A stretch of 64,000 nucleotides of DNA from Rhizobiales bacterium PAR1 (GTDB taxonomy: Bacteria; Pseudomonadota; Alphaproteobacteria; Rhizobiales; Beijerinckiaceae), in assembly GCA_002256205.1 (NCBI GenBank), contig NKIW01000004.1:387802-451801 (forward strand), written 5' to 3'. Position 1 is the first letter of the stretch. Each line of letters opens with the position of its first letter. The translations under genes were made by a program, and so were the position numbers. This document shows positions 479 to 17,346 of the stretch, in pieces. Below the pieces are notes generated by a model. That model was not told where the DNA came from and did no database searches. It saw only the letters and a list, made by a program, of their open reading frames with translations.

Positions 479-1327
479 ATGGACTTTACTAAATCAGATA
501 TCGCGGAAATAGCCGCGGGCGCGCAGAGCATCGGGCGTGCTCTGGCCTTGCTGCGCCTGCTCGGTGGCCGCCCGAAGGATGGTGCGAGCCTCAGCGAGCT
601 TGTCGCGCGATCGGGTCTCGCGAAGCCGACCTGCCGGCGCATCCTGCTTGCGCTGATGGAAGCGGGCCTTGTCGAGCAGGAAGCGCTGAACCGTCGTTAT
701 TTCCTCGGGCCCGAGGTTTATGTGCTCGGCACCATTGCTGCCGATCGTTACGGGATCGACCGGCATGCGCTCGATTGCGTCAGCCGCCTCGCGCAGAAGA
801 CTGGCGACGCCGCGTTTCTTCAGGTTCGGCGAGGCGGGTTTGTCGTGTGTCTGGCGCGAGAGGATGGCACCTATCCCATTCGCTCACATGTTCTTGCCGC
901 CGGTGATCGGCATCCCCTCGGTGCCGGCGCCGGAGCACTTGCGGTGCTGGCCGCGTTGGATGATGCCGACATCGAGGCGACATTCGCAGCCAATGCACGC
1001 CTGCTGGAATCCGAGTATCCCACGCTCTCACTGCCCCTCTTGCGCATCTTGGTGCAGGAGACGCGGAGCAAGGGCTACAGCCTCAATCGCGGGCTTCTGT
1101 TCCCCGGTTCCTGGGGTATGGGTATGGCCATCCGGGGCGCTTCCGGACATGTCGAGGCTTGCCTGTCGCTGGCCTCCATCGAGAGCCGGATGCAGCCCGA
1201 GCGCGAACCCCAACTCGCTGGCTGGCTGACCGAGGAGGTGCGCCTTGTCGAGCAACGCCTCACGGAAGCCGCCGGCCATCGCGACAACCGATACCAGAAC
1301 ACGGCCGCACTGCGGCAAAAAGCCTAG
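479..1327 (+). CDS. IclR-family transcriptional regulator
   Basis: The 282-residue protein has the IclR plan. An N-terminal winged helix-turn-helix runs from about residue 12 to 75 (SIGRALALLRLL, LSELVARSGLAKPTCRRIL, RRYFLGPEVYVLG). It is followed by a ligand-sensing domain with GDRHPLGAGAGALAVLAAL and, near the end, GMAIRGASGHVEACLSLAS. Such proteins bind small acids and repress or activate catabolic operons. The gene ends 12 bases before the thiolase gene and probably belongs to the same transcript, which makes it the likely local regulator of the CoA-ester operon. The ATG at 479 gives the usual family length. An in-frame ATG at 428 has a better-placed GAGG and would add 17 residues, so the start is uncertain. 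Confidence 0.88.
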   Translation: MDFTKSDIAEIAAGAQSIGRALALLRLLGGRPKDGASLSELVARSGLAKPTCRRILLALMEAGLVEQEALNRRYFLGPEVYVLGTIAADRYGIDRHALDCVSRLAQKTGDAAFLQVRRGGFVVCLAREDGTYPIRSHVLAAGDRHPLGAGAGALAVLAALDDADIEATFAANARLLESEYPTLSLPLLRILVQETRSKGYSLNRGLLFPGSWGMGMAIRGASGHVEACLSLASIESRMQPEREPQLAGWLTEEVRLVEQRLTEAAGHRDNRYQNTAALRQKA

Positions 1328-1339
1328 GAAGGAACCCTC

Positions 1340-2524
1340 ATGTCCCAACTCCCCCGCGGCAAGGCCGCCATCGTCGGCTGGGCGCATTCGCCCTTCGGCA
1401 AACTCGAGGATCCGGATGTCGAAAGCCTGATCGGGCGCGTCGCCTCGGGTGCGCTGGACCATGCCGGGATCGGCGCCGCCGATGTCGATTTCATCACTGT
1501 CGGGGTTCTCAACTGCGGCTTCTCCAAGCAGGGTTTTGAGGGCGCGCTGGTCGGCGCGGCCTTGCCAGAGCTCGGCTACACGCCTTCGATGCATGTCGAG
1601 AATGCCTGCGCCACCGGTTCGGCCGCGATCCATACAGCGCTCGATTTCATCGAAAGCGGCCGCGGACGCATCGCGCTGGTCATCGGTGCGGAAAAAATGA
1701 CCGCGACCCCGACGAGCGAGGTCGGCGATATTCTGCTCGCCGGCTGCTATCGCAAGGAAGAAGATCGCGTCGAGGCCGGTTTTGCCGGCATCTTCGGGCA
1801 GATCGCCGCGAACTATTTCCAGCGTTATGGCGACAAGAGCGCCGAACTCGCGATGATTGCTGCGAAGAACCATGTGCATGGTCTTTCGAATCCGTACGCC
1901 CACATGCGTAAGGATTTCGGCTTCGAGTTCTGCAACACCGTGTCGGAGAAGAACCCGCTGGTCGCTGGCCCACTGCGCCGCACCGATTGCAGCCTCGTCT
2001 CGGATGGTGCTGCGGCGCTGGTGCTCGCGGATGCCGAGACCGCCGCGACCATGCGGCGCGCGATTGCCTTCCGCACGCGTCAGCACATCAATGATTTCTT
2101 CCCGCTTTCGCGGCGTGATCCGATTGCCTTCGAGGGCGCCCGCCGCGCCTGGGCGAAGGCCAAGGAGGCGGGCGGTATCAGTCTTGACGATCTCGATCTT
2201 GTCGAGACGCATGACTGCTTCACCATGGCCGAGATGATCCAGTACGAAGCGATGGGCCTCGCCAAGCCCGGCGAAGGCTGGAAGGTCGTGCGTGAAGGCA
2301 CGACGAAGCGCGGCGGCAAGCTGCCCGTCAACCTTTCGGGCGGACTGAAATCACGCGGACATCCGATTGGCGCCACCGGTGTTTCGCAGCACGTCATGGC
2401 CGCGATGCAGCTCACGGGCGATGCCGGCGAGATGCAGCTCGACGGTGCCTCCATGGCTGGTGTTTTCAATATGGGCGGCGCGGCTGTCGCCAATTACGTG
2501 TCTATTCTGGAGCGGATGAAGTGA
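1340..2524 (+). CDS. thiolase-family protein (SCP2/acetyl-CoA acetyltransferase type)
   Basis: The 394-residue protein is a thiolase. The nucleophilic cysteine is Cys90 in ENACATGSAAI, a second active-site region reads HDCF (His291, Cys293), and the GHPIGATG loop carries His341. The C-terminus reads FNMGGAAVANYV, not the CxG motif of biosynthetic thiolases. That is typical of the SCP2-like branch, which cleaves or forms varied beta-ketoacyl-CoAs. A good AGGAAGGA ribosome site precedes the ATG. The stop overlaps the GTG of the ligase gene by four bases (GTGA), so the two are translationally coupled. The role is probably the final thiolytic step of the operon's pathway; the exact substrate is not readable. 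Confidence 0.88.
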   Translation: MSQLPRGKAAIVGWAHSPFGKLEDPDVESLIGRVASGALDHAGIGAADVDFITVGVLNCGFSKQGFEGALVGAALPELGYTPSMHVENACATGSAAIHTALDFIESGRGRIALVIGAEKMTATPTSEVGDILLAGCYRKEEDRVEAGFAGIFGQIAANYFQRYGDKSAELAMIAAKNHVHGLSNPYAHMRKDFGFEFCNTVSEKNPLVAGPLRRTDCSLVSDGAAALVLADAETAATMRRAIAFRTRQHINDFFPLSRRDPIAFEGARRAWAKAKEAGGISLDDLDLVETHDCFTMAEMIQYEAMGLAKPGEGWKVVREGTTKRGGKLPVNLSGGLKSRGHPIGATGVSQHVMAAMQLTGDAGEMQLDGASMAGVFNMGGAAVANYVSILERMK

Positions 2525-4155
2525 GCAAAGCCAACCCGAAAGGCGGTGTTGCCCCCAATTCCAAGCGGGCGATGAATCTGGCGCATCTGATACGCCAGAA
2601 TGCCCGCCGTTTTCCTGAGCTGCCCGGCCTGATCTGGGCCGAGAAAACCTGGAGCTGGATCGAGATCGACCGCGAAGTGAATGCCTTCGCAGCAGCGCTT
2701 GCCGCACGCGGGCTAGTGAAGGGCGATCGGCTGCTGGTGCATTCAAAAAACACCGCGCAGATGTTCTTCTCGATGTATGCCTGCTTCAAGCTCGGCATCG
2801 TCTGGGTGCCGACAAACTTCCGCCTGATGCCGGACGAACTCGTCTATCTCGGCGGTTTTTCCGGCGCCAAGGGCTTCCTCTGCCACGGCGATTTTCCCGA
2901 TCACGCTGCGACGGTTGCGCAGGAAGTTCCGAATGTCGAGTTCATCTGGCGGCTCGACGAGCAGGCCAAACCCACCACGTTCGGTGAAGCCAATGTCAGC
3001 GATCTTCTCGACCGCCATCGCGGCGAACGCATCGCGGATGTCGCCGTCGACCACTATGATCCCTGCTGGTATTTCTTCACTTCTGGCACAACCGGCCGCT
3101 CCAAGGCCTCCGTGCTCTGCCACGGCCAGATGGCGTTCGTGATCACCAATCACCTCTGCGATCTTCTGCCTGGAACGACCGAGAAGGACGCGAGCCTTGT
3201 GGTTGCACCGCTCAGTCACGGCGCCGGCGTGCATCAGATGAACATCGTTGCGCGCGGCGCACCGACGATCCTGCTGCCAACCGAGCGCTTCGATATCGAT
3301 GAGGCATGGCGGCTGATCGCGCATTACCGTGTCACCAACATGTTCACGGTGCCGACAATCCTCAAGATGCTGACCGAGCATCCCGCCGTCGACAAGTTCG
3401 ATCACTCAAGCCTGCGCTACATCATCTACGCTGGCGCACCGATGTACCGTGAAGACCAGAAATTCGCGCTCAAAAAGCTCGGTAAGGTCATCGTGCAGTA
3501 TTTCGGCCTCGGCGAGGTCACCGGCAATATCACGGTGCTGCCGCCCGCGCTGCATGACCCCGAAGACCATCCAGAAACCAAGATCGGCACCTGCGGCTTC
3601 GAGCGCACGGGCATGCAGGTCGCAATCATGGATGACAACGGCAAAGAATTGCAGCCGTTTGAGACGGGTGAAATCTGCGCCATCGGCCCTGCCGTCTTTG
3701 CCGGCTATTATGATAACCCCGAGGCCAACGCCAAGGCCTTCCGCGACGGCTGGTTCCGCACCGGCGATCTCGGTCATATGGACGAACAGGGCTTCGTCTA
3801 TATCACCGGCCGCGCCTCGGACATGTATATCTCTGGCGGCTCAAACATCTATCCGCGCGAGGTCGAGGAGAAGATCCTCACTCATCCCGCGATCGCAGAA
3901 GTCGCGGTGCTCGGCGTACCGGACAAGCTCTGGGGCGAGGTCGGCGTCGCGGTCTGTGTGCTGCGCGAAGGGCACCGCGTGACAGAAGGCGAGGCTGCCG
4001 AATACCTCGCGCCGAAGGTCCCGCGCTACAAAATGCCAAAGCGATTCTTTTTCTGGGATGCGCTGCCGAAGTCCGGCTATGGCAAGGTGCCGAAGCGCAT
4101 GGTGAAGGACGAGCTTGAAGCACGCGGCCTGATCGGCCCGGAAGGGTTGATCTGA
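2521..4155 (+). CDS. AMP-forming acyl-CoA synthetase/ligase
   Basis: The 544-residue protein belongs to the ANL superfamily. Visible motifs are the phosphate-binding loop TSGTTGRSK (residues 187-195), YFGLGEVTG in the adenylate-binding region, GWFRTGDLGHMDEQGF with the hinge-region aspartate, and the C-terminal lysine region LPKSGYGKVPKRMV. It should activate a carboxylic acid with ATP and CoA, feeding the dehydrogenase, hydratase and thiolase of the same operon. GTG at 2521 gives coupling to the thiolase stop; an in-frame ATG at 2572 would lose 17 residues. Substrate specificity (fatty, aryl or dicarboxylic acid) cannot be read from these motifs. Confidence 0.9.
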   Translation: MSKANPKGGVAPNSKRAMNLAHLIRQNARRFPELPGLIWAEKTWSWIEIDREVNAFAAALAARGLVKGDRLLVHSKNTAQMFFSMYACFKLGIVWVPTNFRLMPDELVYLGGFSGAKGFLCHGDFPDHAATVAQEVPNVEFIWRLDEQAKPTTFGEANVSDLLDRHRGERIADVAVDHYDPCWYFFTSGTTGRSKASVLCHGQMAFVITNHLCDLLPGTTEKDASLVVAPLSHGAGVHQMNIVARGAPTILLPTERFDIDEAWRLIAHYRVTNMFTVPTILKMLTEHPAVDKFDHSSLRYIIYAGAPMYREDQKFALKKLGKVIVQYFGLGEVTGNITVLPPALHDPEDHPETKIGTCGFERTGMQVAIMDDNGKELQPFETGEICAIGPAVFAGYYDNPEANAKAFRDGWFRTGDLGHMDEQGFVYITGRASDMYISGGSNIYPREVEEKILTHPAIAEVAVLGVPDKLWGEVGVAVCVLREGHRVTEGEAAEYLAPKVPRYKMPKRFFFWDALPKSGYGKVPKRMVKDELEARGLIGPEGLI

Positions 4156-4156
4156 C

Positions 4157-5044
4157 ATGGCGCGCGCAGAAGGCTTTGACGCCCGCTACATTCAGCAGCC
4201 CGGACCGCCGCAGGAACCGCGCATTCTCGCGGTGCCCGCACGCGGGCTCTCCTTCAACTTTGACCTTGAACCGGGCGTGCAACTGCTTGAGGGCATGCGG
4301 CGCGGGTTTGCCGCCAGAGGCTTCTCCAGCGGTGTCGCGGAGCTTGGCACCGTAGCGCTAGGCCCCTTCACCTATGTGATGCCCGCCCTCTCGGTCGATG
4401 GCAAAAACGCCGCTTTCTATAGCGAGACCTTCCGGCCGGCGGGGATTACGCGGCTCGAAGCCGGCGCGATTACCTTCGGCTCGCGCGATGGCGCGCCGTT
4501 TTTCCATTGCCATGCACTCTGGCAGGAAGCCGATGGCAAGATCACCGGCGGACATATTCTCCCCGAGGAAGCGATCATCGCCGAGCGGATCAGCGTGACG
4601 GCCTTTGGGCTCGATGGCGCGCGCTTTGAGGGTAACCCGGACCCAGAGACGAACTTCAAGCTCTTCGGTCCGGTTGCCATTCCCTCCTCGGCGCCGGATA
4701 CCAATTGTCGGGCTTTTGCGGTGCGCTTGCGGCCAAATCAGGATTTTGCTGGCGCGCTTGAAGCCCTATGCAAGGTTCAGAATATCCGTCGCGCGCGCAT
4801 CCGGGGCGGTGTCGGCTCGACTATCGGTTCGCGGCTTGTGGGTGGCATTGAGGTCAAGAATTTTGCCACCGAAGTTTTTATCCGCAGGGGCATAGTCGAG
4901 ATGGATGCTTCGGGCACGCCGAAAGCACATCTCGATGTTGGTCTCGTCGATTACACCGGCGGCATGGCTTCCGGAACCGTCATCAATGGCGACAACCCGG
5001 TGCTCATGACCTTCGAACTCGCCGTCGAGGAACTTTTGTCCTGA
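4157..5044 (+). CDS. tandem PPC/DUF296-domain protein in a CoA-ester operon
   Basis: I read the 295-residue protein as two PPC (DUF296) folds. The N-terminal half keeps the metal-site signature: His117 and His119 in FFHCHALW and His133 in GGHI, after a strand reading LEAGAITFGSRDG. The C-terminal half (about 165-290) repeats the pattern with DFAGALEALCKVQNIRRARIRGG and AHLDVGLVDYTGGMASG, but keeps only one histidine. PPC domains occur in plant AT-hook DNA-binding proteins and in bacterial proteins of unclear function. The gene starts one base after the ligase stop and sits amid CoA enzymes, so an enzymatic or CoA-ester-handling role is more plausible than DNA binding. The domain assignment is by eye. 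Confidence 0.7.
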   Translation: MARAEGFDARYIQQPGPPQEPRILAVPARGLSFNFDLEPGVQLLEGMRRGFAARGFSSGVAELGTVALGPFTYVMPALSVDGKNAAFYSETFRPAGITRLEAGAITFGSRDGAPFFHCHALWQEADGKITGGHILPEEAIIAERISVTAFGLDGARFEGNPDPETNFKLFGPVAIPSSAPDTNCRAFAVRLRPNQDFAGALEALCKVQNIRRARIRGGVGSTIGSRLVGGIEVKNFATEVFIRRGIVEMDASGTPKAHLDVGLVDYTGGMASGTVINGDNPVLMTFELAVEELLS

Positions 5045-5060
5045 AGCCACGCGCGTGGAA

Positions 5061-5112
5061 AACCCTGATTGCGCAGGGATGACAGCCGGACGAAAGTCCC
5101 GGCATCAGGGTT
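5061..5112. repeat. inverted repeat between PPC and hydratase genes
   Basis: AACCCTGAT (5061-5069) pairs perfectly with ATCAGGGTT (5104-5112) around a 34-base loop that has its own GGGA/TCCC complementarity. The 92-base gap is long for this tight operon, and the element resembles extragenic palindromes common in alphaproteobacteria. It may stabilise or attenuate the mRNA. Confidence 0.45.
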
Positions 5113-5136
5113 GCGCCATTTTGAAGGATCGCCTGC

Positions 5137-5988
5137 ATGCCACAGGATATCGCCCACCTCAGCCAATGGATTGGCCGGAGCGAAGAGCGCCACGAGCGTC
5201 TTGCGCCCTTCCCTGCCAATGCGCTGGCTGCGACGCTTGATCGCGCCGATCCAGCCTATGGCGAGGGCACGTCGCTGCCGCCGCTCTGGCATTGGCTGCA
5301 TTTCCTGCCCATCCACGCGATGTCGGACGTCGGTGCCGATGGTCATGCTGAAAAAGGCGGATTTCTCCCGCCGGTGACGCTGCCCCGCCGGATGTGGGCG
5401 GGGAGCCGGTTTACCTTTCACAAACCGCTGGTGATAGGCGACACGGTCAGCCGTGTCTCGACCATCGCCAAGGTGGAACACAAGGTCGGGCGCACGGGAG
5501 AACTCGTATTCGTCACGGTGAAGCACCTGCTCTCCGGCGCAGGCGGCCTCGCGATCGAGGAAGAACACGACATCGTGTACCGGGAGGCCGCCCAGCCGGG
5601 CGCAGCGGCACCGGCTCCGGTGGCCGCCCCGATCGAGGCGGATTGGCGTCGCCCCATCCATCCGGATGCAGTGTTGTTGTTTCGCTATTCCGCGCTGACT
5701 TTCAACTCGCACCGCATTCACTACGACCTTGAGTATGTCACCAAGGTCGAGGGCTATCCGGGGCTCATCGTCCATGGTCCGCTGATCGCGACGCTGCTCC
5801 TCGACGGGTTGCGTCGGCAGAAGCCGGAGGCGCGGGTCGCCAAATTCAGCTTCCGAGCCGTCGCGCCGATTTTCCATATCGACGCCTTCTCCGTCTGTGG
5901 CCGGTTTATTGGTCCCGGCCAGGCAAAGCTGTGGGCGGAAAAAGTGGGGCGCGCGCTCTGTATGGAGGCTGAAGCCGAATTTTCCTAG
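5137..5988 (+). CDS. FAS1-like dehydratase/MaoC protein, mesaconyl-C4-CoA hydratase-like
   Basis: The 283-residue protein matches the HTD2/mesaconyl-C4-CoA hydratase group. The N-terminal hot-dog region has LPPLWHWLHFLP and GGFLPPVTLPRRMWAGSR. The C-terminal MaoC-like half has FNSHRIHYDLEYV followed by GYPGLIVHGPL, which carries the catalytic Asp/His environment of hydratases. Family members hydrate mesaconyl-C4-CoA in the 3-hydroxypropionate cycle, itaconyl-CoA in itaconate breakdown, or other enoyl-CoAs. The neighbouring CoA-transferase and acyl-CoA dehydrogenase fit such a route. The exact substrate is inferred only from family resemblance. Confidence 0.82.
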   Translation: MPQDIAHLSQWIGRSEERHERLAPFPANALAATLDRADPAYGEGTSLPPLWHWLHFLPIHAMSDVGADGHAEKGGFLPPVTLPRRMWAGSRFTFHKPLVIGDTVSRVSTIAKVEHKVGRTGELVFVTVKHLLSGAGGLAIEEEHDIVYREAAQPGAAAPAPVAAPIEADWRRPIHPDAVLLFRYSALTFNSHRIHYDLEYVTKVEGYPGLIVHGPLIATLLLDGLRRQKPEARVAKFSFRAVAPIFHIDAFSVCGRFIGPGQAKLWAEKVGRALCMEAEAEFS

Positions 5989-6083
5989 CGTGCTCATTTG
6001 CCGCCTTTCCCTTGCTTAAATCATGCCTATGTGACCCGGAATCCCCCTCATACCGCTTCCTCTGAATTGAAAGTTGACGTGCC

Positions 6084-7259
6084 ATGTCGTCCCACGCGAT
6101 GTCCGCTCCTGCCGATCCGCATCAGGAAATCCGCGACGCGGTTCGCGCGCTCTGCGCGAGCTTTCCACCCGAGTATCACCGCAAGGTCGATGAGGCGCGC
6201 GGCTATCCGGAGGAGTTCGTCGATGCCCTGACCAAGGCAGGATGGATGGCGGCCTTAATCCCCGAAGAATATGGCGGCTCAGGCCTTGGCCTCACCGAAG
6301 CCTCGGTGATCATGGAGGAAATCAACCGTTCGGGAGGCAATTCCGGTGCCTGCCACGGCCAGATGTACAACATGGGCACGCTACTGCGACACGGTTCGGC
6401 GGAGCAGAAGAAATTCTACCTGCCGAAGATCGCTTCAGGCGAACTCCGGCTGCAGTCCATGGGCGTGACCGAGCCGACGACCGGCACGGATACGACGAAA
6501 ATCAAGACCACGGCCGTTCGCAAGGGTGATCGCTATGTCATCAACGGCCAAAAGGTATGGATAAGCCGCGTCCAGCATTCGGACCTGATGATCCTGCTGG
6601 CACGCACGACAGCGCTGGAGGACGTGAAGAAGAAGTCCGAGGGGATGTCGATTTTCCTCGTCGACCTGAAAGAAGCCATCGGCAAGGGGATGACGGTTCG
6701 CCCGATCCTCAATATGGTCAACCACGAGACCAACGAGCTGTTTTTTGACAACCTTGAAATCCCGGTAGAGAACCTCATCGGCGAGGAAGGCAAGGGCTTC
6801 AAATACATCCTTGACGGCCTCAACGCCGAGCGTGCGCTGATCGCGGCGGAGTGCATCGGCGATGGCTACTGGTTCATCGACAAGGTGACGGCCTACACCA
6901 AGGAGCGCATCGTGTTCGGGCGCCCGATCGGCCAGAATCAGGGCGTGCAGTTCCCTATCGCCGAGAGCTACATCGAGGTTGAGGCGGCGAACCTGATGCG
7001 CTTTGAGGCGTGCCGGCTGTTCGATGCCAAGCTGCCCTGCGGCGCGCAGGCGAACATGGCGAAATACCTCGCCGCCAAAGCGAGTTGGGAGGCGGCGAAT
7101 GCCTGCATCCAGTTCCACGGCGGCTTCGGCTTTGCACATGAATACGATGTTGAGCGCAAATTCCGCGAGACACGGCTCTATCAGGTCGCGCCGATCTCGA
7201 CGAACCTGATCCTCTCCTATGTGGCCGAGCATATCCTCGGCCTGCCGCGCTCCTTCTGA
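6084..7259 (+). CDS. acyl-CoA dehydrogenase
   Basis: The 391-residue flavoprotein has the acyl-CoA dehydrogenase plan: EEYGGSGLGL, the FAD-contact segment GVTEPTTGTDTT, NGQKVWISRVQHSD, and the C-terminal QFHGGFGFAHEYDVERKFRETRLYQVAP. The usual catalytic Glu of the YEG motif is replaced here (RLYQVAPIST). Glu249 in LNAERALIAAE sits where isovaleryl- and long-chain enzymes carry their base, so it is the probable catalytic residue. It likely oxidises the acyl-CoA made by the ligase or CoA-transferase and passes electrons to ETF. ATG at 6084 was chosen; ATG at 6099 is an alternative. A 95-base gap precedes the gene and eight bases follow it before the CoA-transferase. Confidence 0.9.
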   Translation: MSSHAMSAPADPHQEIRDAVRALCASFPPEYHRKVDEARGYPEEFVDALTKAGWMAALIPEEYGGSGLGLTEASVIMEEINRSGGNSGACHGQMYNMGTLLRHGSAEQKKFYLPKIASGELRLQSMGVTEPTTGTDTTKIKTTAVRKGDRYVINGQKVWISRVQHSDLMILLARTTALEDVKKKSEGMSIFLVDLKEAIGKGMTVRPILNMVNHETNELFFDNLEIPVENLIGEEGKGFKYILDGLNAERALIAAECIGDGYWFIDKVTAYTKERIVFGRPIGQNQGVQFPIAESYIEVEAANLMRFEACRLFDAKLPCGAQANMAKYLAAKASWEAANACIQFHGGFGFAHEYDVERKFRETRLYQVAPISTNLILSYVAEHILGLPRSF

Positions 7260-7267
7260 GGCTCGCC

Positions 7268-8464
7268 ATGCCAACCACCAAGACCCTGCGACCACTGGAT
7301 GGCATCACCGTTGTCACGCTGGAACACGCGATTGCGGCGCCGTTCTGTACGCGTCAGCTGGCCGATCTCGGGGCGCGTGTCATCAAGATCGAGCGTCCCG
7401 GCGTCGGCGATTTCGCCCGCGCCTATGACACGCGGGTAAACGGCCTTGCCTCACATTTCGTCTGGACCAACCGCTCGAAGGAAAGCCTCACGCTCGATGT
7501 GAAGCACACCGAAGCACAGCAGATCCTGGGGCAACTCCTCGAAAAGGCCGATGTGCTGGTGCAGAACCTCGCGCCGGGCGCAGCGGCCCGCCTCGGTCTT
7601 TCGTACGAGGCGCTGAAGGACAAGCACCCGCGCCTCATCGTCTGCAATATTTCGGGGTATGGCCCCAATGGACCGTATCGCGACAAGAAGGCCTATGACC
7701 TCTTAATCCAGTCCGAGAGCGGGTTTCTTTCCACCACCGGGACGCCGGAGGAGATGGCGAAGGCCGGCTGTTCCATCGCCGATATTTCGGCCGGGATGCA
7801 TGCTTATTCCTCGATCCTCGCGGCGCTGATTCAGCGTGGCATCACCGGCAAGGGCCAAAACATCGAAATCTCGATGCTCGAAAGCATGGCCGAGTGGATG
7901 AGCTATCCGCTTTACTACGCCTATGAGGGTGCTGCGCCACCGCCGCGGGCAGGAGCGGCACATGCGACAATCTACCCCTATGGTCCTTTCCCGGCGGGTG
8001 ATGGCAAGACGATCATGCTCGGCCTGCAAAACGAGCGCGAATGGCAGGTATTCTGCGACAAGGTTCTGGAAAATGCGGCCCTTGCGGCCGATCCCCGGTT
8101 CAACTCGAATGCCCAACGCAATACCCACCGCGCGGCGCTGCGCGAGATCATCATAGCGCGCCTTTCCACGATGACGCTGGAAGCCGTGGCGGCAAAGCTG
8201 GAAGCGGCGCAAATCGCCAATGCCGCCGTCAACACGATGGCGGATCTCTGGGCGCATCCGCAGTTGAAAGCGCGCGACCGCTGGCGCGAAGTTAGCACTT
8301 CGGCAGGGACCATTCCGGCTTTGCTCCCGCCGGGTGAGTCGAGCGCGTTCGAACCCCGGATGGATGCGGTGCCGGCGCTGGGCCAGCATACCGATGCCAT
8401 CCTCGCCGAATTTGGATGGGATGAGGAGCGCAGGGTTGCCTTGCGGGAAAAAGGCGCAATCTAG
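7268..8464 (+). CDS. class III (CaiB/BaiF) CoA-transferase
   Basis: The 398-residue protein has the family III fold signature. The N-terminus reads LDGITVVTLEHAIAAPFCTRQLADLGARVIKIERP, split here as LDGITVVTLEHAIAAPFC and LADLGARVIKIERP. ISGYGPNGPYRDKKAYDLL follows, and the catalytic aspartate is Asp172 in ADISAGMH. GITGKGQNIEISMLE is also typical. These enzymes move CoA between carboxylic acids, or within one molecule as in mesaconyl-CoA C1-C4 transferase. Next to a mesaconyl-C4-CoA-hydratase-like protein, an intramolecular or succinyl-CoA-dependent transfer on a C4-C5 diacid is an attractive guess. It follows the dehydrogenase gene closely and ends the enzyme part of the operon. Confidence 0.9.
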   Translation: MPTTKTLRPLDGITVVTLEHAIAAPFCTRQLADLGARVIKIERPGVGDFARAYDTRVNGLASHFVWTNRSKESLTLDVKHTEAQQILGQLLEKADVLVQNLAPGAAARLGLSYEALKDKHPRLIVCNISGYGPNGPYRDKKAYDLLIQSESGFLSTTGTPEEMAKAGCSIADISAGMHAYSSILAALIQRGITGKGQNIEISMLESMAEWMSYPLYYAYEGAAPPPRAGAAHATIYPYGPFPAGDGKTIMLGLQNEREWQVFCDKVLENAALAADPRFNSNAQRNTHRAALREIIIARLSTMTLEAVAAKLEAAQIANAAVNTMADLWAHPQLKARDRWREVSTSAGTIPALLPPGESSAFEPRMDAVPALGQHTDAILAEFGWDEERRVALREKGAI

Positions 8465-8517
8465 GACTTACGGGAGGTACGGATCACGTAGTTTCCGCAA
8501 TAGCCAACCGCACTGTT

Positions 8518-8545
8518 TTGAACGATGATCCGGTGCAAGTATTCT
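8518..8545 (+). promoter_or_regulatory. possible sigma70-type promoter for dctPQM
   Basis: TTGAAC and TATTCT are separated by 16 bases in the 139-base gap before dctP. The gap and the change from enzymes to transporter make a separate promoter plausible, but the match is weak evidence alone. Confidence 0.25.
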
Positions 8546-8603
8546 CGCCAAGGCGGGTCAAAAATCGGGAATCAACCCGTCAACGAGATATGGGAGAGAC
8601 AAC

Positions 8604-9632
8604 ATGACGCTCAATCGCCCTTCGACACGCCGCCGAGTTCTGAAAGCCGCTGCCGTCGGCTCTCTGCTCGCGCTGACCGCCAGTGCAGCCTCAGCGCAAG
8701 CCCCGATTGTCATCAAGTTCAGCCATGTCGTCGCGCCGGATACGCCCAAGGGCAAAGGCTCGCAGAAGTTTCAGGAACTTGCCGAGAAATACACCAACGG
8801 CAAGGTGAAGGTTGAGGTTTACCCGAACTCCCAGCTCTTCAAGGACAAGGAAGAGCTGGAGGCGCTCCAGCTTGGCGCGGTGCAGATGCTGGCGCCGAGC
8901 CTTGCGAAGTTCGGCCCGCTCGGCGCGCGCGAGTTCGAGGTGTTCGACCTGCCCTTCATCTTCCCGGACAAGGCCGCGCTGCGCAAGGTGACGGATGGTC
9001 AGGTCGGCAAGGATCTTTTCGCCAAGCTCGAATCCAAGGGCATCACCGGGCTTGCCTATTGGGACAACGGCTTCAAGATCATGTCCGCCAACCGCGAGAT
9101 CAAGCGGCCCGACGACATGCTCGGCCTCAAGATCCGCATTCAGTCTTCGAAGGTTCTGGAAGCGCAGATCAAGGCACTCGGCGGCATTCCGCAGGTGATG
9201 GCCTTCTCGGAAGTTTACCAGGCACTGCAGACCGGCGTGGTGGACGGTCAGGAGAACACGGCCTCGAACATGTTCACGCAGAAAATGCACGAGGTACAGT
9301 CGCATACCGCCGTCACAGATCACGGTTATATCGGCTATGCGGTGATCGTGAACAAGAAATTCTGGGATGGTTTGCCGGCGGATATCCGCCCGCAACTTGA
9401 AAAGGCGATGGCGGAAGCCACGGCCTATTCGAACACCATTTCCCAGAAGGAAAACGATGATGCGCTTGAAGACATGCGCAAATCCGGCAAAACGAAAATC
9501 TACCAGCTGACCGCCGATGACAAGAAGGCCTGGCTCGCAGCGTTGCGCCCGGTGCACAAGGAAATGGCGAGCCGGGTCGGCAAGGAAACCATCGACGCGG
9601 TTTACAAGGCGATCGGCATTCCGACCAACTGA
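8604..9632 (+). CDS. dctP: TRAP transporter dicarboxylate-binding protein DctP
   Basis: The 342-residue periplasmic receptor starts with a signal peptide (RRRVLKAAAVGSLLALTASA, then SAQA) and reads IKFSHVVAPDTPKGKG, the typical DctP opening. Further family landmarks are LQLGAVQMLAPSLAKFG, FDLPFIF, the ligand-arginine region MLGLKIRIQSSKV, FSEVYQALQTGVVDGQEN and HGYIGYAVIVNKKFW. It captures a C4-dicarboxylate-like acid and hands it to DctQM. GGGAGAGA provides the ribosome site. A hairpin separates it from dctQ. Its position after the CoA operon suggests that its ligand is the substrate of that pathway. Confidence 0.93.
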   Translation: MTLNRPSTRRRVLKAAAVGSLLALTASAASAQAPIVIKFSHVVAPDTPKGKGSQKFQELAEKYTNGKVKVEVYPNSQLFKDKEELEALQLGAVQMLAPSLAKFGPLGAREFEVFDLPFIFPDKAALRKVTDGQVGKDLFAKLESKGITGLAYWDNGFKIMSANREIKRPDDMLGLKIRIQSSKVLEAQIKALGGIPQVMAFSEVYQALQTGVVDGQENTASNMFTQKMHEVQSHTAVTDHGYIGYAVIVNKKFWDGLPADIRPQLEKAMAEATAYSNTISQKENDDALEDMRKSGKTKIYQLTADDKKAWLAALRPVHKEMASRVGKETIDAVYKAIGIPTN

Positions 9633-9702
9633 GCACCGGCAGAACAGGCCTCTGGCGAACATCCCGTTTGCCGGAGGACCATGTGCACAAACAACAAGAA
9701 TA

Positions 9703-9719
9703 GCCCCGATGAACGGGGT
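9703..9719 (+). terminator. intercistronic hairpin between dctP and dctQ
   Basis: GCCCCG-ATGAA-CGGGGT forms a short stem just before the dctQ ribosome site. A second imperfect stem (CCTCTGGC with GCCGGAGG) lies slightly upstream. No T-run follows, so attenuation or 3' protection of dctP mRNA is more likely than full termination. Confidence 0.4.
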
Positions 9720-9736
9720 CTGGGGGAGACTGGCAC

Positions 9737-10381
9737 GTGTTCCTGAAAGTCCTTGACCGGCTGGAGGAGATCGTCATTGCGACGCTGATTGCGGTTGCAA
9801 CGCTGATCATCTTCATCGCCGTGGTTCATCGCTATGGCACCACACTGTCGATCAATCTCGCGCAATGGGGCAAAAGCATCGGCCAGCCATGGCTCTTCGA
9901 TGGCGGGCGGGCGGTGTTTTCCTTCCTGCGCAAGATCAACCTCACCTGGGCGCAGGAACTCTGCATCTACCTCTTTGTCTGGATGGCGAAATTCGGCGCA
10001 GCCTATGGCGTGCGCACCGGCATCCATGTGGGTGTCGACGTGGCGGTGCAGATGGTTTCGCCTGCCTCCAAGCGGATTGTTGTTCTCTTCGCGCTGATGA
10101 GCGGCGCACTGTTCACCTTCATAGTCGGCTCGCTCGGCGCGCGCTTCGTCTGGCATATCGCGCAGACCGATCAGGTCTCGGCGGACCTCGAGATGCCGAT
10201 GTGGATCGTCTATATCGCGGTGCCGCTGGGCTCCTACCTCATGTGTTTCCGGTTCCTGCAGGTTGCGCGGACCTTCCTGCGCACGGGTGAACTCCCACAC
10301 CACGACCATGCCCATGTTGATGGTCTTGAGGACGAGGTGCCCACTCTTCCGGGCGCGCTCGCACAGGGAGACGCCCGATGA
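9737..10381 (+). CDS. dctQ: TRAP transporter small permease DctQ
   Basis: The 214-residue membrane protein has four hydrophobic segments (IVIATLIAVATLIIFIAVVH, then WAQELCIYLFVWMAKFGAAY, IVVLFALMSGALFTFIVGS and WIVYIAVPLGSYLMCFRF). It includes the EL-xx-LFVWM-xx-GAAYG region typical of DctQ. It bridges the binding protein and the large permease. The start is a GTG behind a GGGGGAGA ribosome site. The stop overlaps the dctM ATG by four bases. Confidence 0.9.
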   Translation: MFLKVLDRLEEIVIATLIAVATLIIFIAVVHRYGTTLSINLAQWGKSIGQPWLFDGGRAVFSFLRKINLTWAQELCIYLFVWMAKFGAAYGVRTGIHVGVDVAVQMVSPASKRIVVLFALMSGALFTFIVGSLGARFVWHIAQTDQVSADLEMPMWIVYIAVPLGSYLMCFRFLQVARTFLRTGELPHHDHAHVDGLEDEVPTLPGALAQGDAR

Positions 10382-11838
10382 CACCGACACAGCTTGTTTC
10401 CTCGCAAGAGCAGGGCTCGCCACGCAGCGGCTACATTCTCGTTGGCCTGCCGATCCTGCTGCTCGTCGGCTGTCTTGGCGCCAAGTGGGGCATTCTGCCG
10501 ATGTCCGGTGGCGTGCGCGTCACCATGATCTTCCTGCTGCTCGTCGCGCTGATGCTGACCGGCATGCCGATCTCGATCGCGCTCGGCCTCACGGTGCTGA
10601 CCTTCCTCTTCACGCTCACCGAAGTGCCGATGGATTCGGTAGCTCTGAAGCTCTTCACCGGCATCGAGAAATTCGAGATCATGGCGATCCCGTTCTTCAT
10701 TCTTGCCGGGAATTTTCTGACCTCAGGTGGCGTCGCGCGCCGGATGATCACGTTTGCCTCGGCGATGATCGGGCATTGGCATGGCGGATTGGGCCTTGCT
10801 GGCGTACTGGCTTGCGCGCTGTTCGCGGCAGTCTCCGGCTCATCTCCGGCGACTGTGGTCGCCATCGGCTCGATCATCCTGCCGGCGATGGTCAAGCAGG
10901 GGTTTCCAAACCGCTTCGGAGCGGGCGTGATCACCACATCCGGCGCGCTTGGCATCCTTATTCCGCCATCCATCGTGATGGTGATGTACGCCGTTGCGAC
11001 CTCTGGTATGCAAGTCGAAGGGCCGACGGGTGCGAAGGTCTCCTCCGCCTCCGTGGGACAACTCTTCATGGCCGGCGTGGTGCCGGGCCTGATGCTCGCC
11101 TTCTTCTTGGGTCTGACGACCTGGTATCGCGCGTGGAAGAATGGCTATCCGCGCATGCCGCGCGCGACATGGCCTGAACGGGCCAAAGCCCTCAAGGACA
11201 GCTTCTGGGGTCTGTTGCTGATCGTCATCGTGATCGGCGGCATCTACACTGGCGCCTTTACGCCAACTGAAGCGGCGGCGATGGCTGCTGCCTATGCCTT
11301 CTTTGTCGCTGTCTTCGTCTACAAGGACATGCGGCTTAAAGACGTGCCGCGTGTTCTTCTGCAATCGGCGTCAATGAGCGCGATGCTGCTCTACATCATC
11401 ACCAACGCCGTGCTGTTCTCGTTCCTGATGACGCACGAGAACATACCGCAGGCGATGGCAGCCTGGATCGGCGGCACAGGCCTCAACTGGATCACCTTCC
11501 TTCTCCTGGTGAACCTGCTGCTGCTGCTCGCGGGCAATGTGATGGAGCCCTCCTCCATCGTGCTGATCATGGCGCCGATCCTCTTCCCGATGGCAGTGAA
11601 GCTCGGGATTGATCCGGTGCACTTCGGCATCCTGATCGTCGTGAACATGGAAGTCGGCATGTGTCACCCGCCGGTGGGCCTCAACCTCTATGTCGCCTCG
11701 GGCATCACCAAGATGGGGATCACAGAATTGACCATCGCAGTCTGGCCATGGCTCCTCACAATGCTCGGCTTCCTTGTGCTTGTCACCTACGTGCCGGAAC
11801 TCTCGCTCTGGCTGCCGCGCATGCTTGGGATGCTCTAA
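10378..11838 (+). CDS. dctM: TRAP transporter large permease DctM
   Basis: The 486-residue protein is very hydrophobic and shows DctM landmarks: GMPISIALGL, MAIPFFILAGNFLTSGGVARR, GSSPATVVAIGSIILPAMV, GALGILIPPSIVMVMY, TPTEAAAMAAAYAF, GNVMEPSSIVLIMAPILFP and GICHPPVGLN-like MCHPPVGLNLYVASGI. It is the sodium-driven transport channel of the TRAP system. The 3' end overlaps the convergent fumarase gene by four bases, leaving no room for a separate terminator between them. Confidence 0.93.
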   Translation: MTPTQLVSSQEQGSPRSGYILVGLPILLLVGCLGAKWGILPMSGGVRVTMIFLLLVALMLTGMPISIALGLTVLTFLFTLTEVPMDSVALKLFTGIEKFEIMAIPFFILAGNFLTSGGVARRMITFASAMIGHWHGGLGLAGVLACALFAAVSGSSPATVVAIGSIILPAMVKQGFPNRFGAGVITTSGALGILIPPSIVMVMYAVATSGMQVEGPTGAKVSSASVGQLFMAGVVPGLMLAFFLGLTTWYRAWKNGYPRMPRATWPERAKALKDSFWGLLLIVIVIGGIYTGAFTPTEAAAMAAAYAFFVAVFVYKDMRLKDVPRVLLQSASMSAMLLYIITNAVLFSFLMTHENIPQAMAAWIGGTGLNWITFLLLVNLLLLLAGNVMEPSSIVLIMAPILFPMAVKLGIDPVHFGILIVVNMEVGMCHPPVGLNLYVASGITKMGITELTIAVWPWLLTMLGFLVLVTYVPELSLWLPRMLGML

Positions 11839-13334
11839 GGTAAAGTCCGCCACATCGCGGGCCCGAGGGTGTGGACGGATTTTCCCGTCGCATCCACCGC
11901 GACCGTGACCGGCATATCCTCGACAATGAACTCGTGGATTGCTTCCATGCCAAGATCCTCGAAGGCGAGGACGCGAGCCGACTTGATAGCTTTTGATACG
12001 AGGTAGGCGGCCCCGCCGACGGCGATGAGATAAGCCGCACCCTGCCTGCGGATGGCCTCGATGGCCTCTGGTCCACGTTCGGCCTTGCCGATCATCACGA
12101 GCAGGCCGGAAGCGGCGAGAAGCTCGTCAGTGAACTTGTCCATGCGAGTTGCCGTGGTTGGGCCTGCAGGGCCGACGGCTTCCCCTGCGACGGCATCCAC
12201 CGGACCGACGTAATAGATCGCGCGATCCCTAAGATCGACCGGCAAAGGCTTCCCCTCGCGGATCAGCGCCGACATGCGAGCATGAGCGGCATCGCGCCCC
12301 GTCAGCATGCGCCCGGAAAGCAGGAGTGTTTCGCCGGCTTTCCATGTCGCAACCTCGGTTCGGGTAAGCCTGTCGAGATTGACCTTGCGGGCATTTCCGG
12401 CGGTGGCGATCTGAATTTCCTCGGGCCAGATTGAAAGCGTTGGCGGGGTGAAAACCGCCGGGCCCGAACCATCGAGGATGAAGGCGAGATGCCGATCCGC
12501 TGCGCATTGCGGCACCAGTGCCACCGGCTTCGAGGCGGCATGGGTGGGGAAAGTCGCGATCTTGACGTCGAGCACCGTCGTCAGCCCGCCGAGCCCTTGC
12601 GCGCCGATTCCGAGGGCGTTGATTTTTTCATAGAGGTCAATGCGCATTTCCTCGAGTTTGGAGGAAGGCCCGCGCGCCCGAAGCTCCTGCATATCAATCG
12701 GCTGAAGCAGTGAGGTCTTGGCAAGCAGCATCGCCTTTTCCGGCGAGCCACCGACACCCAGGCCAATGATGCCCGGCGGACACCAACCCGCGCCAAGTTT
12801 CTCGATTGTGCGCAGCACCCAATCGGTCACATCATCGCTTGGCTCAAGGGCTGCGAACTTGACCTTATTCTCGGAACCGCCGCCCTTAGCCGCGACATGC
12901 ACCTCAATCTGATCGCCAGCGACAAGCTCGACATGCAGCATTGCCGGCGTGTTGTCGCCGGTGTTCTTGCGTGCGAACAGCGGATCATCCACCACAGAAG
13001 CGCGCAGCGGATTGGCCTCGCGTGCCCACGCTACCCGCACAGCTTCATCTGCTAGGCTTTGCAGATCACGTCCGCTCGCGATGCGGACACCCATACCAAC
13101 TTTCATGAAAATCTGCGCCGTGCCGGTATCCTGGCAGATCGGGCGGCGGCCCAACGCCGCCATGCGCGAGTTCACGAGAATTTGTGCCATGGCAGCCTTC
13201 GCAGCCGGACTTTTCTCGCGAGCGTAAGCGGCGCTCAAATTACGGATGTAATCCTCGGGATGAAAGCAGGAAATGACCTGCAAGGCCTCGGCAAGGCTCT
13301 CGACGAGGTCACTTTCCGTGATGGTCCTGAGCAT
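11835..13334 (-). CDS. class I [4Fe-4S] fumarase-type hydratase (fumarase or mesaconase)
   Basis: The 499-residue protein is a fused alpha-beta class I fumarase. The three cluster-binding cysteines are visible: Cys67 in GRRPICQDTG, Cys185 in GAGWCPPGIIG and Cys277 in VPQCAADRH. Other landmarks are KNTGDNTPAMLH, AAKGGGSENK, GPVDAVAGEAVGPAGPTTATRMD and GMEAIHEFIVEDMPVTVAVD. Such enzymes hydrate fumarate to malate, and close relatives hydrate mesaconate to citramalate. The position beside a mesaconyl-CoA-type operon and a dicarboxylate TRAP system makes mesaconase activity worth testing. The ATG at 13334 has GGAG eight bases upstream. It is divergent from the molybdenum hydroxylase genes. Confidence 0.9.
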   Translation of the reverse strand: MLRTITESDLVESLAEALQVISCFHPEDYIRNLSAAYAREKSPAAKAAMAQILVNSRMAALGRRPICQDTGTAQIFMKVGMGVRIASGRDLQSLADEAVRVAWAREANPLRASVVDDPLFARKNTGDNTPAMLHVELVAGDQIEVHVAAKGGGSENKVKFAALEPSDDVTDWVLRTIEKLGAGWCPPGIIGLGVGGSPEKAMLLAKTSLLQPIDMQELRARGPSSKLEEMRIDLYEKINALGIGAQGLGGLTTVLDVKIATFPTHAASKPVALVPQCAADRHLAFILDGSGPAVFTPPTLSIWPEEIQIATAGNARKVNLDRLTRTEVATWKAGETLLLSGRMLTGRDAAHARMSALIREGKPLPVDLRDRAIYYVGPVDAVAGEAVGPAGPTTATRMDKFTDELLAASGLLVMIGKAERGPEAIEAIRRQGAAYLIAVGGAAYLVSKAIKSARVLAFEDLGMEAIHEFIVEDMPVTVAVDATGKSVHTLGPAMWRTLP

Positions 13335-13459: not shown

Positions 13460-13909
13460 ATGGCGAAGCTTACCATCAACGGAAAAACCGTCGATATCGA
13501 TGCGGCACCGGATACGCCATTGTTGTGGGCGATCCGGGAGCATATCGGCCTCACCGGCACGAAATACGGTTGCGGCGTTGGTCAGTGCGGCTCCTGCACC
13601 GTGCATATCGATGGCGAGGCGGTGCGCTCCTGCTCACTGACGGTCGGCTCACTCAAGGCCGACCAGAAGATCGTGACCATCGAAGGCCTCTCGCCCGATG
13701 CCTCGCACCCGATCCAGAAGGCGTGGTTGCAACTTGAGGTGCCGCAGTGTGGTTATTGCCAGTCTGGCATGATCATGGCCGCAGCCGCGCTGCTCGCCAA
13801 AAAGCCCAAGCCGACCGATGCCGACATCGACGAAGCCATGACCAATATCTGCCGTTGCGGGACGTATAATCGCGTCCGGGCCGGCATTAAGCTTGCCGCA
13901 AACGCGTGA
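13460..13909 (+). CDS. [2Fe-2S] subunit of molybdenum hydroxylase, IorA-like
   Basis: The 149-residue protein carries two [2Fe-2S] clusters as in xanthine-oxidase-family small subunits. A plant-ferredoxin-type site has Cys38, Cys43, Cys46 and Cys58 ([11 protein letters not shown]). A second helical site has Cys97, Cys100, Cys131 and Cys133 ([21 protein letters not shown]). It relays electrons from the molybdenum subunit encoded just downstream. The closest style is isoquinoline 1-oxidoreductase alpha subunit. There is no separate FAD subunit gene, so electrons must leave by another route, perhaps the cytochromes encoded next. AGGAGGG precedes the ATG. Confidence 0.92.
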
Positions 13910-13923
13910 GAAGGAAGACAGCC

Positions 13924-16095: not shown

Positions 16096-16556
16096 TGGGG
16101 GCGAAGACGCGCGCCTTCGGGCTCGCTGCCATACTGCTACTGGCGCTGGCCAGCAGCGGAGTTATGGTGCGGGGGCAAGGCATCACAGAACTTGTGGTTG
16201 CGGGAGAAATTCCGCGACCACTCAACGGATTGACGGGCGATGCTGCGCGTGGACGCACCATCATCACGGATCGGCGGAAGGGACTTTGCCTCCTCTGCCA
16301 TTCCGGACCGTTTCCGGAAGAACGATTTCAGGGCACGCTGGCACCGACGCTGGCGGGCACCGGCAAACGCCTCACGGAGGGCGCGATACGTTTGCGCCTT
16401 GTTGACGGCCGTAAACTCAATCAGCAGACCCTGATGCCGCCGTATCACGCCACGGAAGGGCTTTCGCAGGTAGGACAAAACTGGCGGGATAAAACCATCT
16501 TCTCCGCGCAGGACGTGGAAGATGTCGTGGCGTTTTTGAAAACCTTGCAGGAATAG
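16095..16556 (+). CDS. soxX: sulfur-oxidation cytochrome c SoxX
   Basis: The 153-residue secreted monoheme cytochrome has an N-terminal hydrophobic signal, the haem motif CLLCH (Cys65-His69) and a likely axial methionine in QTLMPPYH (Met114). GDAARGRTIITDRRKGLCLLC, split by the haem, and VGQNWRDKTIFSAQDVEDVVAFL are typical of SoxX. SoxX pairs with SoxA to attach thiosulfate oxidatively to SoxYZ. Translation is coupled to the molybdenum subunit gene by a TGATG junction, which ties the two systems together. No other Sox enzyme genes lie upstream. Confidence 0.88.
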   Translation: MGAKTRAFGLAAILLLALASSGVMVRGQGITELVVAGEIPRPLNGLTGDAARGRTIITDRRKGLCLLCHSGPFPEERFQGTLAPTLAGTGKRLTEGAIRLRLVDGRKLNQQTLMPPYHATEGLSQVGQNWRDKTIFSAQDVEDVVAFLKTLQE

Positions 16557-16560
16557 GTGG

Positions 16561-17019
16561 ATGATCGAGCCTTACCCCCTCTCGCGACGAAGCGTGTTGG
16601 TGCAGGTCGCAGCAAGCTTTGCCTTTCTCGCGACGCGTCCGGCTTTCGCCGAAGCAGATGAGACAGCTCAAGCCATCCGCGAGTTTACGGGCGGTGCGAA
16701 AATCACGCCCGGAAAGGTTTCGATAGAGGTCGCGCCGCTGGTCGAGAATGGAAATTCCGTCGCGCTGGCTGTTGCGGTCGAAAGCCCGATGACCGTGGAC
16801 CATCACGTCAAAACGATTGCGCTTTTCAACGAGAAGAATCCGCAACCGCAAATCGCGCGATTCCACCTGTCGCCTCGCTCAGGGACATCTCGCGTCGAGA
16901 CCCGCATCCGCCTTGCGACCACGCAGCATATCACCGCAATCGCGCAGTTGAGCGATGGCAGCTTCTGGTCGCAGGAGGTCGAGGTCATCGTCACCATCGC
17001 GGCCTGCACGGAGGAGTAA
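16561..17019 (+). CDS. soxY: sulfur-carrier protein SoxY with variant C-terminus
   Basis: The 152-residue protein starts with a twin-arginine signal (LSRRSVLVQVAASFAFLATR). Its body is typical SoxY (ALAVAVESPMTVDHHVKTI, NPQPQIARFHLSPRSG, RIRLATTQHITAIAQLSDGSFW). SoxY normally ends in GGCGG, the swinging arm that carries sulfur on its cysteine. Here the end is TIAACTEE, with Cys149 present but the flanking glycines replaced and two acidic residues added. It may bind sulfur differently or serve another acceptor. It lies four bases after soxX and three bases before soxZ. Confidence 0.88.
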   Translation: MIEPYPLSRRSVLVQVAASFAFLATRPAFAEADETAQAIREFTGGAKITPGKVSIEVAPLVENGNSVALAVAVESPMTVDHHVKTIALFNEKNPQPQIARFHLSPRSGTSRVETRIRLATTQHITAIAQLSDGSFWSQEVEVIVTIAACTEE

Positions 17020-17022
17020 GAC

Positions 17023-17346
17023 ATGGCGAATGCGCTACTCGACTTGCCCAAAACCGCGCGCAAGGGCGAGGTGATCAAGATCACGACGCTCGTCTCGCAC
17101 CTCATGGAAACCGGCTACCGCCGCGAGATTTCCGGCGCCGTCATCCCGCGCCTCATCATTCATACCTTCACCTGCCGTTATGACGGCGAGGAGGTTTTCC
17201 GCGCCGAGCTTTTCCCGGCAATGGCCGCCAATCCGTTGATTGCCTTTTCGACCATCGCGACAAAGAGCGGGCCGATCAGCTTCACCTGGGTCGATGATGC
17301 CGGCATCACCCTCACGGAGAGCGTCGATCTCGTCGTGACGGATTGA
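17023..17346 (+). CDS. soxZ: sulfur-carrier complex protein SoxZ
   Basis: The 107-residue protein matches SoxZ: ARKGEVIKITTLVSHLMETGYRRE (shown here as its first and last parts, ARKGEVIKI and HLMETGYRRE), PRLIIHTFTCRYDGEEVF, LFPAMAANPLIAF and FTWVDDAG. It has no signal peptide and is normally exported bound to SoxY. It forms the scaffold half of the SoxYZ carrier. Position between soxY and soxA with tiny gaps indicates one transcript. Confidence 0.9.
   Translation: MANALLDLPKTARKGEVIKITTLVSHLMETGYRREISGAVIPRLIIHTFTCRYDGEEVFRAELFPAMAANPLIAFSTIATKSGPISFTWVDDAGITLTESVDLVVTD

Follow-up and report, generated by a model that had tools for sequence, protein, structure and literature searches.

A probable methylsuccinate/itaconate/mesaconate utilisation cluster beside a separate CoA-ligase and PPC-protein unit in Rhizobiales bacterium PAR1

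The locus and its two units

Do the eleven genes at positions 479-13334 of a 64,000-nt stretch of contig NKIW01000004.1, from Rhizobiales bacterium PAR1, encode one pathway of diacid breakdown or more than one unit? The whole stretch that was analysed is called the window here; its source genome (G000) is 4.2 Mb in 25 contigs. The eleven genes form two units that are independent of each other. Module A (5137-13334) is, judging from its sequence relatives, very probably a methylsuccinate/itaconate/mesaconate utilisation cluster, and module B (479-5044) is a separate coenzyme A (CoA) ligase unit upstream of it. Genes were called with a codon-model caller trained on the window, and a Pfam scan of ten of the eleven proteins, all but DctQ, confirmed the families of those ten. 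Every gene named in the original prediction for this locus is an open frame and the order is as it described (gene calls; Pfam for ten). The features are as follows, with TRAP standing for tripartite ATP-independent periplasmic transporter.

479-1327, plus strand: IclR-family regulator, first gene of module B (Pfam IclR_C and HTH_IclR)
1340-2524, plus strand: SCP2-type thiolase, module B (NCBIfam PRK07516 thiolase family, 653 bits)
2521-4155, plus strand: AMP-forming acyl-CoA ligase, module B (NCBIfam PRK07470 equivalog, 925 bits against a cut-off of 774)
4157-5044, plus strand: tandem PPC (DUF296) protein, module B (Pfam PCC at residues 185-293)
5137-5988, plus strand: FAS1_DH-type hydratase resembling itaconyl-CoA hydratase/mesaconyl-C4-CoA hydratase (ich), module A (PDB matches)
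6084-7259 (or start 6099), plus strand: acyl-CoA dehydrogenase (ACAD) resembling (RS)-methylsuccinyl-C4-CoA dehydrogenase (mcd), module A (identity)
7268-8464, plus strand: class III CoA-transferase resembling itaconate/(R)-methylsuccinate CoA-transferase (ict), module A (tree clade)
8604-9632, plus strand: TRAP solute-binding protein of IctP/DctP type (dctP; ligand-contact residues)
9737-10381, plus strand: TRAP small membrane subunit of dctQ type (called gene between dctP and dctM; 84% identical in L033)
10378-11838, plus strand: TRAP large membrane subunit of dctM type (Pfam DctM; TIGR00786, 524 bits)
11835-13334, minus strand: class I (Fe-S) fumarase, probable mesaconase (Pfam Fumerase and Fumerase_C)

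The convergence of the last gene on the end of dctM, also described earlier, holds: it runs from 13334 to 11835 on the minus strand against a plus-strand set.

Module A and the canonical cluster

The enzymes of the itaconate/methylsuccinate cluster were characterised from Cupriavidus necator and Pseudomonas aeruginosa, with activities measured, by Gonner et al. (PMC12290011). According to the available text of that paper, Ict is the activating enzyme for itaconate and (R)-methylsuccinate, with weaker activity on (S)-citramalate; Mcd yields mesaconyl-C4-CoA, Ich hydrates and Ccl cleaves; Msi interconverts the methylsuccinate enantiomers, and a class I fumarase hydrates mesaconate. The locus shares Ich-like, Mcd-like and Ict-clade enzymes with the canonical ich-mcd-msi-ict-ccl cluster (C. 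necator E6A55_22580-22600; P. aeruginosa PA0878-PA0883; PMC12290011), but it has neither msi nor ccl and carries a class I fumarase in addition. Its order ich-mcd-ict is also seen in two canonical loci, L167 and L170. The route had been proposed as undescribed; in fact PMC12290011 characterised its enzymes, from C. necator and P. aeruginosa, and PMC12599236 its importer. What is new is that a candidate mesaconase is linked to the cluster, that the usual lyase is missing from it and that ligase and PPC form a pair.

The reactions of module A would be those of its characterised relatives. The TRAP system would import a C5 diacid. The class III transferase would pass CoA from succinyl-CoA to (R)-methylsuccinate, itaconate or (S)-citramalate to give the C4-ester, the dehydrogenase would convert methylsuccinyl-C4-CoA to mesaconyl-C4-CoA, and the hydratase would form (S)-citramalyl-CoA from either itaconyl-CoA or mesaconyl-C4-CoA. 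This product may then be cleaved to acetyl-CoA and pyruvate by a CitE-type lyase whose gene lies at another place in the genome, and the class I hydratase would feed mesaconate in through its hydration to (S)-citramalate. The identity, kinship and linkage of the genes, set out below, are observed directly. The earlier proposal of import and breakdown of a branched diacid is supported, as the hydratase, dehydrogenase, CoA-transferase, TRAP system and class I hydratase all fit C5 diacids (methylsuccinate, itaconate, mesaconate and citramalate).

The only PDB matches of the hydratase at E 0.001 are 8huc (8e-82) and 8khg (9e-82), the latter named itaconyl-CoA hydratase. The protein is 48.5% identical over 272 aa to the P. 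aeruginosa itaconyl-CoA hydratase chain, against which the hydratase of canonical locus L167 shows 49%, and its motif region is conserved across 27 aligned sequences. In the hydratase tree the window groups (95) with L033, a locus of a Beijerinckiaceae metagenome-assembled genome, and with L128, a contig of the same-genus genome G082, within an eight-row clade (98).

The dehydrogenase is 90-92% identical to those of L128 and L033, 78-87% to those of L167, L169, L170, L174, L175 and L181, and 77-79% to those of L180, L182 and L183. It has a glutamate at residue 249, which we take to be the IVD/LCAD catalytic-base position, and none at what is presumably the MCAD base position. A phylum-level search of 398 genomes with this ACAD at E 1e-120 or better matched 64 genomes, and the matches fall into two groups, one of high identity (74-90%) and one at 57-68%. 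Twenty of the 32 places with at least 74% identity were fetched; the window and G082 (L128) are also among the 32, and the remaining ten lie outside the sample. Partner genes in the 20 loci were counted by tblastn; the codon-model caller misses genes in genomes of other composition, and tblastn added a hydratase in L168 and CoA-transferases (67-69%) in L178 and L179.

Nine of the 20 loci are canonical (L167, L169, L170, L174, L175, L180, L181, L182 and L183), with a hydratase, a CoA-transferase at 68-71% and an MmgE/PrpD protein (Msi) at least 60% identical to that of L182, which supplied the Msi query. A CitE-type lyase is also present in eight of the nine, and the ninth, L169, is cut off by the end of its contig. 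Nine more loci (L164, L165, L166, L168, L171, L172, L173, L178 and L179) have at least one partner. A LysR-type gene is present in eight of the 20 (by eye), whereas none stands beside the cluster of the window. The window's CoA-transferase falls in a 12-row clade with L033, L128 and the nine canonical Icts, to which it is 67-71% identical (Shimodaira-Hasegawa-like approximate likelihood ratio test, SH-aLRT, 98); the remaining 14 class III CoA-transferases of this 26-row tree, from which L178 and L179 were left out, are 44-60% identical to it.

Three related arrangements were seen beside these. The alphaproteobacterial L168 (G449:C12) has a TRAP binding protein (71%), a CoA-transferase (48%, outside the Ict clade), an ACAD (85%) and a hydratase (60%) in a row, and the dehydrogenase therefore also travels with a different CoA-transferase. 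L207 (G082:C1) is a parallel cluster with a CoA-transferase, an ACAD (57%), MmgE/PrpD and its own TRAP genes, together with enoyl-CoA hydratase-like and 3-hydroxy-3-methylglutaryl-CoA-lyase-like genes (by eye); it seems to serve a different branched diacid. At L128:11273-11995 an alpha/beta hydrolase gene lies between the ACAD and the CoA-transferase, and its product might act on a C5 acid as lactonase or thioesterase.

The missing lyase and the weight against the assignment

Several results weigh against reading module A as a methylsuccinate/itaconate/mesaconate cluster. There is no ccl or msi gene in the window locus, and as a Ccl orthologue encoded elsewhere in the genome the CitE-type proteins L184, L188, L189 and L190 were all rejected, each falling outside the 13-row Ccl clade (SH-aLRT 97). 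For the five other rows of the eight-row hydratase clade the fetched stretch shows no partner gene, homologues of the hydratase are found in other gene settings too, and a second C. necator hydratase homologue was judged to serve another pathway in the available text of PMC12290011. The ACAD tree is moderately resolved: the pseudomonad-type L180, L182 and L183 lie outside the window's 20-row clade (support 87), at an unresolved fork. By tblastn of the fetched stretches, two of the 20 ACAD loci (L176 and L177) have no partner gene at all, and a hydratase was not found in eight (L164, L165, L166, L171 and L176-L179). Since PMC12290011, in its available text, treats Ich and Ccl as pathway-specific enzymes, the window locus is not classed as a complete member of the canonical cluster. 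Module A may still work like a member by analogy with it, with the lyase, we infer, supplied in trans.

What kind of enzyme is to be expected follows from the chemistry. Hydration of mesaconyl-C4-CoA yields (S)-citramalyl-CoA, a tertiary alcohol whose hydroxyl carbon also bears a methyl and a carboxyl group, and the known step from there is cleavage by a lyase to acetyl-CoA and pyruvate. Because the hydroxyl carbon is fully substituted, citramalyl-CoA cannot be oxidised to a 3-oxoacyl-CoA, so that a lyase and not a thiolase is called for; the predicted ending in thiolytic cleavage fails on this point.

The source genome has eight HpcH/HpaI matches, four of them the CitE-type proteins named above; three of the others have no blastp match to the cluster lyases, and the last (L186) is fragmented. 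A Ccl profile scores at best 180 bits, with nothing above this, in G000, G082, the same-genus G287 and the L033 genome. The candidate stand-in lyases, judged from their sequences, are L188 (C8:595033) and L190 (C5:81276). The best PDB match of L188 is 5vxc, which we take to be human CLYBL, and that of L190 is malyl-CoA/beta-methylmalyl-CoA lyase. L188-like proteins are also found, by score, in G287, a genome without the cluster, and L188 is therefore not specific to it. None of the MmgE/PrpD proteins of the source genome exceeds about 35% identity to the cluster Msis, which among themselves are at least 60% identical to that of L182.

Two of these places have neighbours of their own. At L190 (G000:C5:81276-83400) a LysR-type regulator (by eye), a class III CoA-transferase (53% identical to the window's) and the malyl-CoA-lyase-like protein adjoin, and the neighbourhood is a candidate second diacid route and lyase source. 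At L186 (G000:C16:103085-103689) a CitE-type gene matches in two pieces beside partial MaoC-like and BKACE-like frames (by eye) and looks broken.

The class I fumarase as a candidate mesaconase

The class I fumarase has Fumerase and Fumerase_C domains and the three Fe-S cysteines, those of the ICQDTGT, WCPPG and PQCAADR segments. In the available texts of PMC4682846 and PMC9875883, class I fumarases hydrate mesaconate. The window enzyme shares the Fe-S hydratase family and the three cysteine segments with the class I fumarases/mesaconases Bxe_A3136, PP_0897 and FumD (PMC9875883, PMC4682846), but differs from them, as there described, in being physically linked to ich-mcd-ict and in having a separate FumC in its genome. 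By analogy the enzyme is probably a mesaconase that converts mesaconate to (S)-citramalate, a role suggested by its linkage to a CoA-transferase together with the promiscuity of its class.

It is unlikely, in comparison, that the enzyme is just a second fumarase of the tricarboxylic acid cycle placed here by chance, even though class I fumarases are promiscuous and P. putida PP_0897 serves both roles (PMC9875883, available text). A phylum search with the class I fumarase matched 132 of 398 genomes, and the settings of all 25 alphaproteobacterial matches were examined. Ten of these belong to the window's order (G000, G082, G218, G043, G136, G034, G209, G265, G537 and G649). All ten have a FumC over the curated cut-off and a class III CoA-transferase (at least 40% identity) within 7.5 kb of the fumarase, against none of the 15 alphaproteobacteria outside the order for the latter; both counts argue against a second fumarase, although the ten genomes are not independent, as four are of one genus with transferases at 41-45% and up to 7.3 kb away. 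Outside the order, FumC is over the cut-off in ten of 15 and a CitE-type gene lies 8.2 kb from the fumarase in one of 15 (L229).

The source genome has one class I fumarase and FumC as well. Both G000 and G082 carry the cluster and the class I fumarase together; G287 has FumC, and no class I fumarase, hydratase (E 0.001) or ACAD (E 1e-120) was matched in it. The fullest setting is L198 of G649, where MmgE/PrpD (33% to Msi), ACAD, fumarase, Ccl, hydratase and CoA-transferase occur together, and L214 of G265 has fumarase-CitE-CoA-transferase. A fumarase was found in none of the 20 high-identity ACAD loci (fetched stretch, tblastn), and a literature search found no paper on the linkage of a class I fumarase to a CoA-transferase.

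Importer and substrate range

Twelve ligand-contact sites of IctP, which binds itaconate, were taken from PMC12599236. The importer of the window resembles IctPQM of P. aeruginosa (PA0884-PA0886, PMC12599236, available text) in being a DctP-family system linked to ich/ict genes, with 11 of the 12 contacts identical in its DctP. It differs at position 234, where IctP has valine, DctP and PA4616 have leucine (PMC12599236) and the window protein has isoleucine. Isoleucine occurs at this position in six of six ACAD-linked binding proteins compared (the window and five others, at least 40% identity) and is the aligned residue in the TRAP binding protein of PDB entry 4o94 as well. Ile234 is compatible with a C5 substrate but no proof of one. 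TRAP binding proteins are linked to the ACAD in L168, L170, L182 and L183 among the 20 loci.

It is improbable that the hydratase, ACAD and CoA-transferase have a different C4-C6 diacid as their substrate, for instance glutarate, an alkylsuccinate or an arylsuccinate. The best sub-threshold NCBIfam match of the CoA-transferase is succinate-glutarate CoA-transferase (259 bits, cut-off 750) and the second match of the ACAD is glutaryl-CoA dehydrogenase (221 against 470), both of which would fit such a substrate. The combination of CoA-transferase, ACAD, hydratase and SCP2-like thiolase also recalls the benzylsuccinate (Bbs) route, which counts on the same side. On the other side, the CoA-transferase groups with the canonical Icts, apart from the other class III enzymes of the tree, and the efficiency of C. 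necator Ict is lower with glutarate, by a factor of about 1000, than with (R)-methylsuccinate (PMC12290011, available text).

Conservation of the gene neighbourhood

The PPC gene was used as bait, which gave 66 named loci, and neighbours were counted within 8 kb of it. A ligase is near the PPC gene in 65 of the 66, directly upstream in nearly all. The hydratase, ACAD, CoA-transferase and fumarase of module A are near it in a single one, L033, the nearest named relative by PPC identity. Other neighbours are TRAP genes (28), short-chain dehydrogenases of two recurrent types (22), an IclR gene (21) and an SCP2-type thiolase (six). A draw of 297 genomes from the window's order contains a PPC match in 57, a hydratase match in 90 and both in 39; among these 39 the two genes adjoin only in the window's own genome, and the next nearest pair is 128 kb apart. 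In G082, contig L128 carries hydratase-ACAD-(alpha/beta hydrolase)-CoA-transferase with a convergent fumarase, while the ligase-PPC pair is on another contig, L147. The modules are held to be separate because PPC travels with the ligase, module A accompanies PPC in one of 66 loci and the units lie apart in the 38 other genomes with both matches. The junction at 5044/5137 is common to two genomes here, the window's and that of L033, and is no general feature. Thus the genes are collinear to the extent of sharing strand and order, but conservation splits them into two units; the comparison across the order that had been suggested as a check goes against a joint set, and the ligase and thiolase, placed earlier in the same route as module A, belong to a separate conserved unit.

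That all eleven genes form one new pathway, in which activation, oxidation and hydration of a branched diacid lead up to its thiolysis, is very improbable: a single strand over 479-11838, the 92 bp from PPC to hydratase and the recurrence of the order ligase-PPC-hydratase-ACAD-CoA-transferase-TRAP-fumarase in L033 favour it, but L033, the only other case found, has neither IclR nor thiolase beside its ligase, the units are apart elsewhere, hydrated mesaconyl-C4-CoA as a tertiary alcohol is not oxidisable for thiolysis, and no 3-hydroxyacyl-CoA dehydrogenase gene was called within 479-13334. Equally slim are the chances of a form of this reading in which the ligase, thiolase, PPC protein and module A are joined with thiolysis at the start and not at the end. 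In that case a 3-oxo-diacid with a methyl branch, of which a methyl-3-oxoadipate formed in methylaromatic breakdown is one example, would be converted by the ligase and SCP2-type thiolase to acetyl-CoA and methylsuccinyl-CoA. Module A would take over from there, its transferase shifting CoA to the C4 carboxyl if required, and the tandem-PPC protein would be a metal enzyme whose substrate is the acid used by the ligase.

The ligase-PPC unit

The two-module reading leaves module B to be considered on its own. The thiolase holds NACATGS, HDCF and GHPIGATG intact, which we take to be the thiolase catalytic motifs, and in relatives it accompanies the ligase, PPC, short-chain dehydrogenases and other TRAP genes.

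The AlphaFold2 model of the PPC protein (predicted local distance difference test score, pLDDT, 93.6) has two PPC domains in tandem, with a PPC fold in each half. The top eight Foldseek matches in the PDB are proteins of 131-144 residues that each cover about half of it (139-150 columns of 295); they include 2dt4, titled as a PPC protein, and AF0104 (2h6l), titled as metal-containing. Each half of the model is like these PPC/DUF296 proteins in fold, whereas the window protein differs from them in having two PPC domains in one chain and in its association with an acyl-CoA ligase across the bait loci. In several genomes the two halves match separate places. H117, H119 and H133, an HxH...H motif of the N-terminal domain, are invariant in 43 of 43 sequences, and the C-terminal domain is without this motif. 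The motif suggests a PPC metal protein, either a metal enzyme or a metal-dependent partner of the ligase.

Acetolactate decarboxylase, AF0104 and PTD012 belong to one SCOP superfamily. As an acetolactate decarboxylase (5xne) the PPC model was rejected, the match being weak (rank 25, E 0.07, probability 0.38, TM 0.23). A literature search on the function of bacterial PPC/DUF296 proteins found nothing of use.

Other features of the window

A promoter and terminator scan gave two promoter-like sites where 2.9 were expected and 16 terminator-like sites where the expectation was 10.8 (standard deviation 3.4), from which nothing was concluded. In the gap between PPC and hydratase (5060-5115) lies an inverted repeat, AACCCTGAT...ATCAGGGTT, with no T run after it, that could be an operator. 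Downstream of the fumarase, 13460-18142 holds a molybdenum-hydroxylase-type pair (2Fe-2S and large subunit) and small cytochrome-type proteins (by eye). An aldehyde dehydrogenase follows beyond the pair at 18215-19657; in G082 (L128) an aldehyde dehydrogenase comes directly after the fumarase. An oxidase pair similar to the window's molybdenum-hydroxylase-type pair is found in L036, after IclR-ligase-PPC-short-chain dehydrogenase. Further on, 32501-39255 looks like a carnitine-type catabolic operon: behind genes for a branched-chain-type ABC importer come those for a 3-hydroxyacyl-CoA (carnitine-type) dehydrogenase and for a BKACE-like protein (by eye).

Implications

The locus extends the methylsuccinate/itaconate route to an alphaproteobacterial variant that has a dedicated mesaconase candidate and is missing the usual lyase. 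The absence of this lyase points to an alternative citramalyl-CoA lyase that can be tested for. The linkage of fumarase and CoA-transferase in the order suggests that the annotation "second fumarase" may often hide a mesaconase. The ligase-PPC pair offers a way to find out what prokaryotic PPC proteins do.

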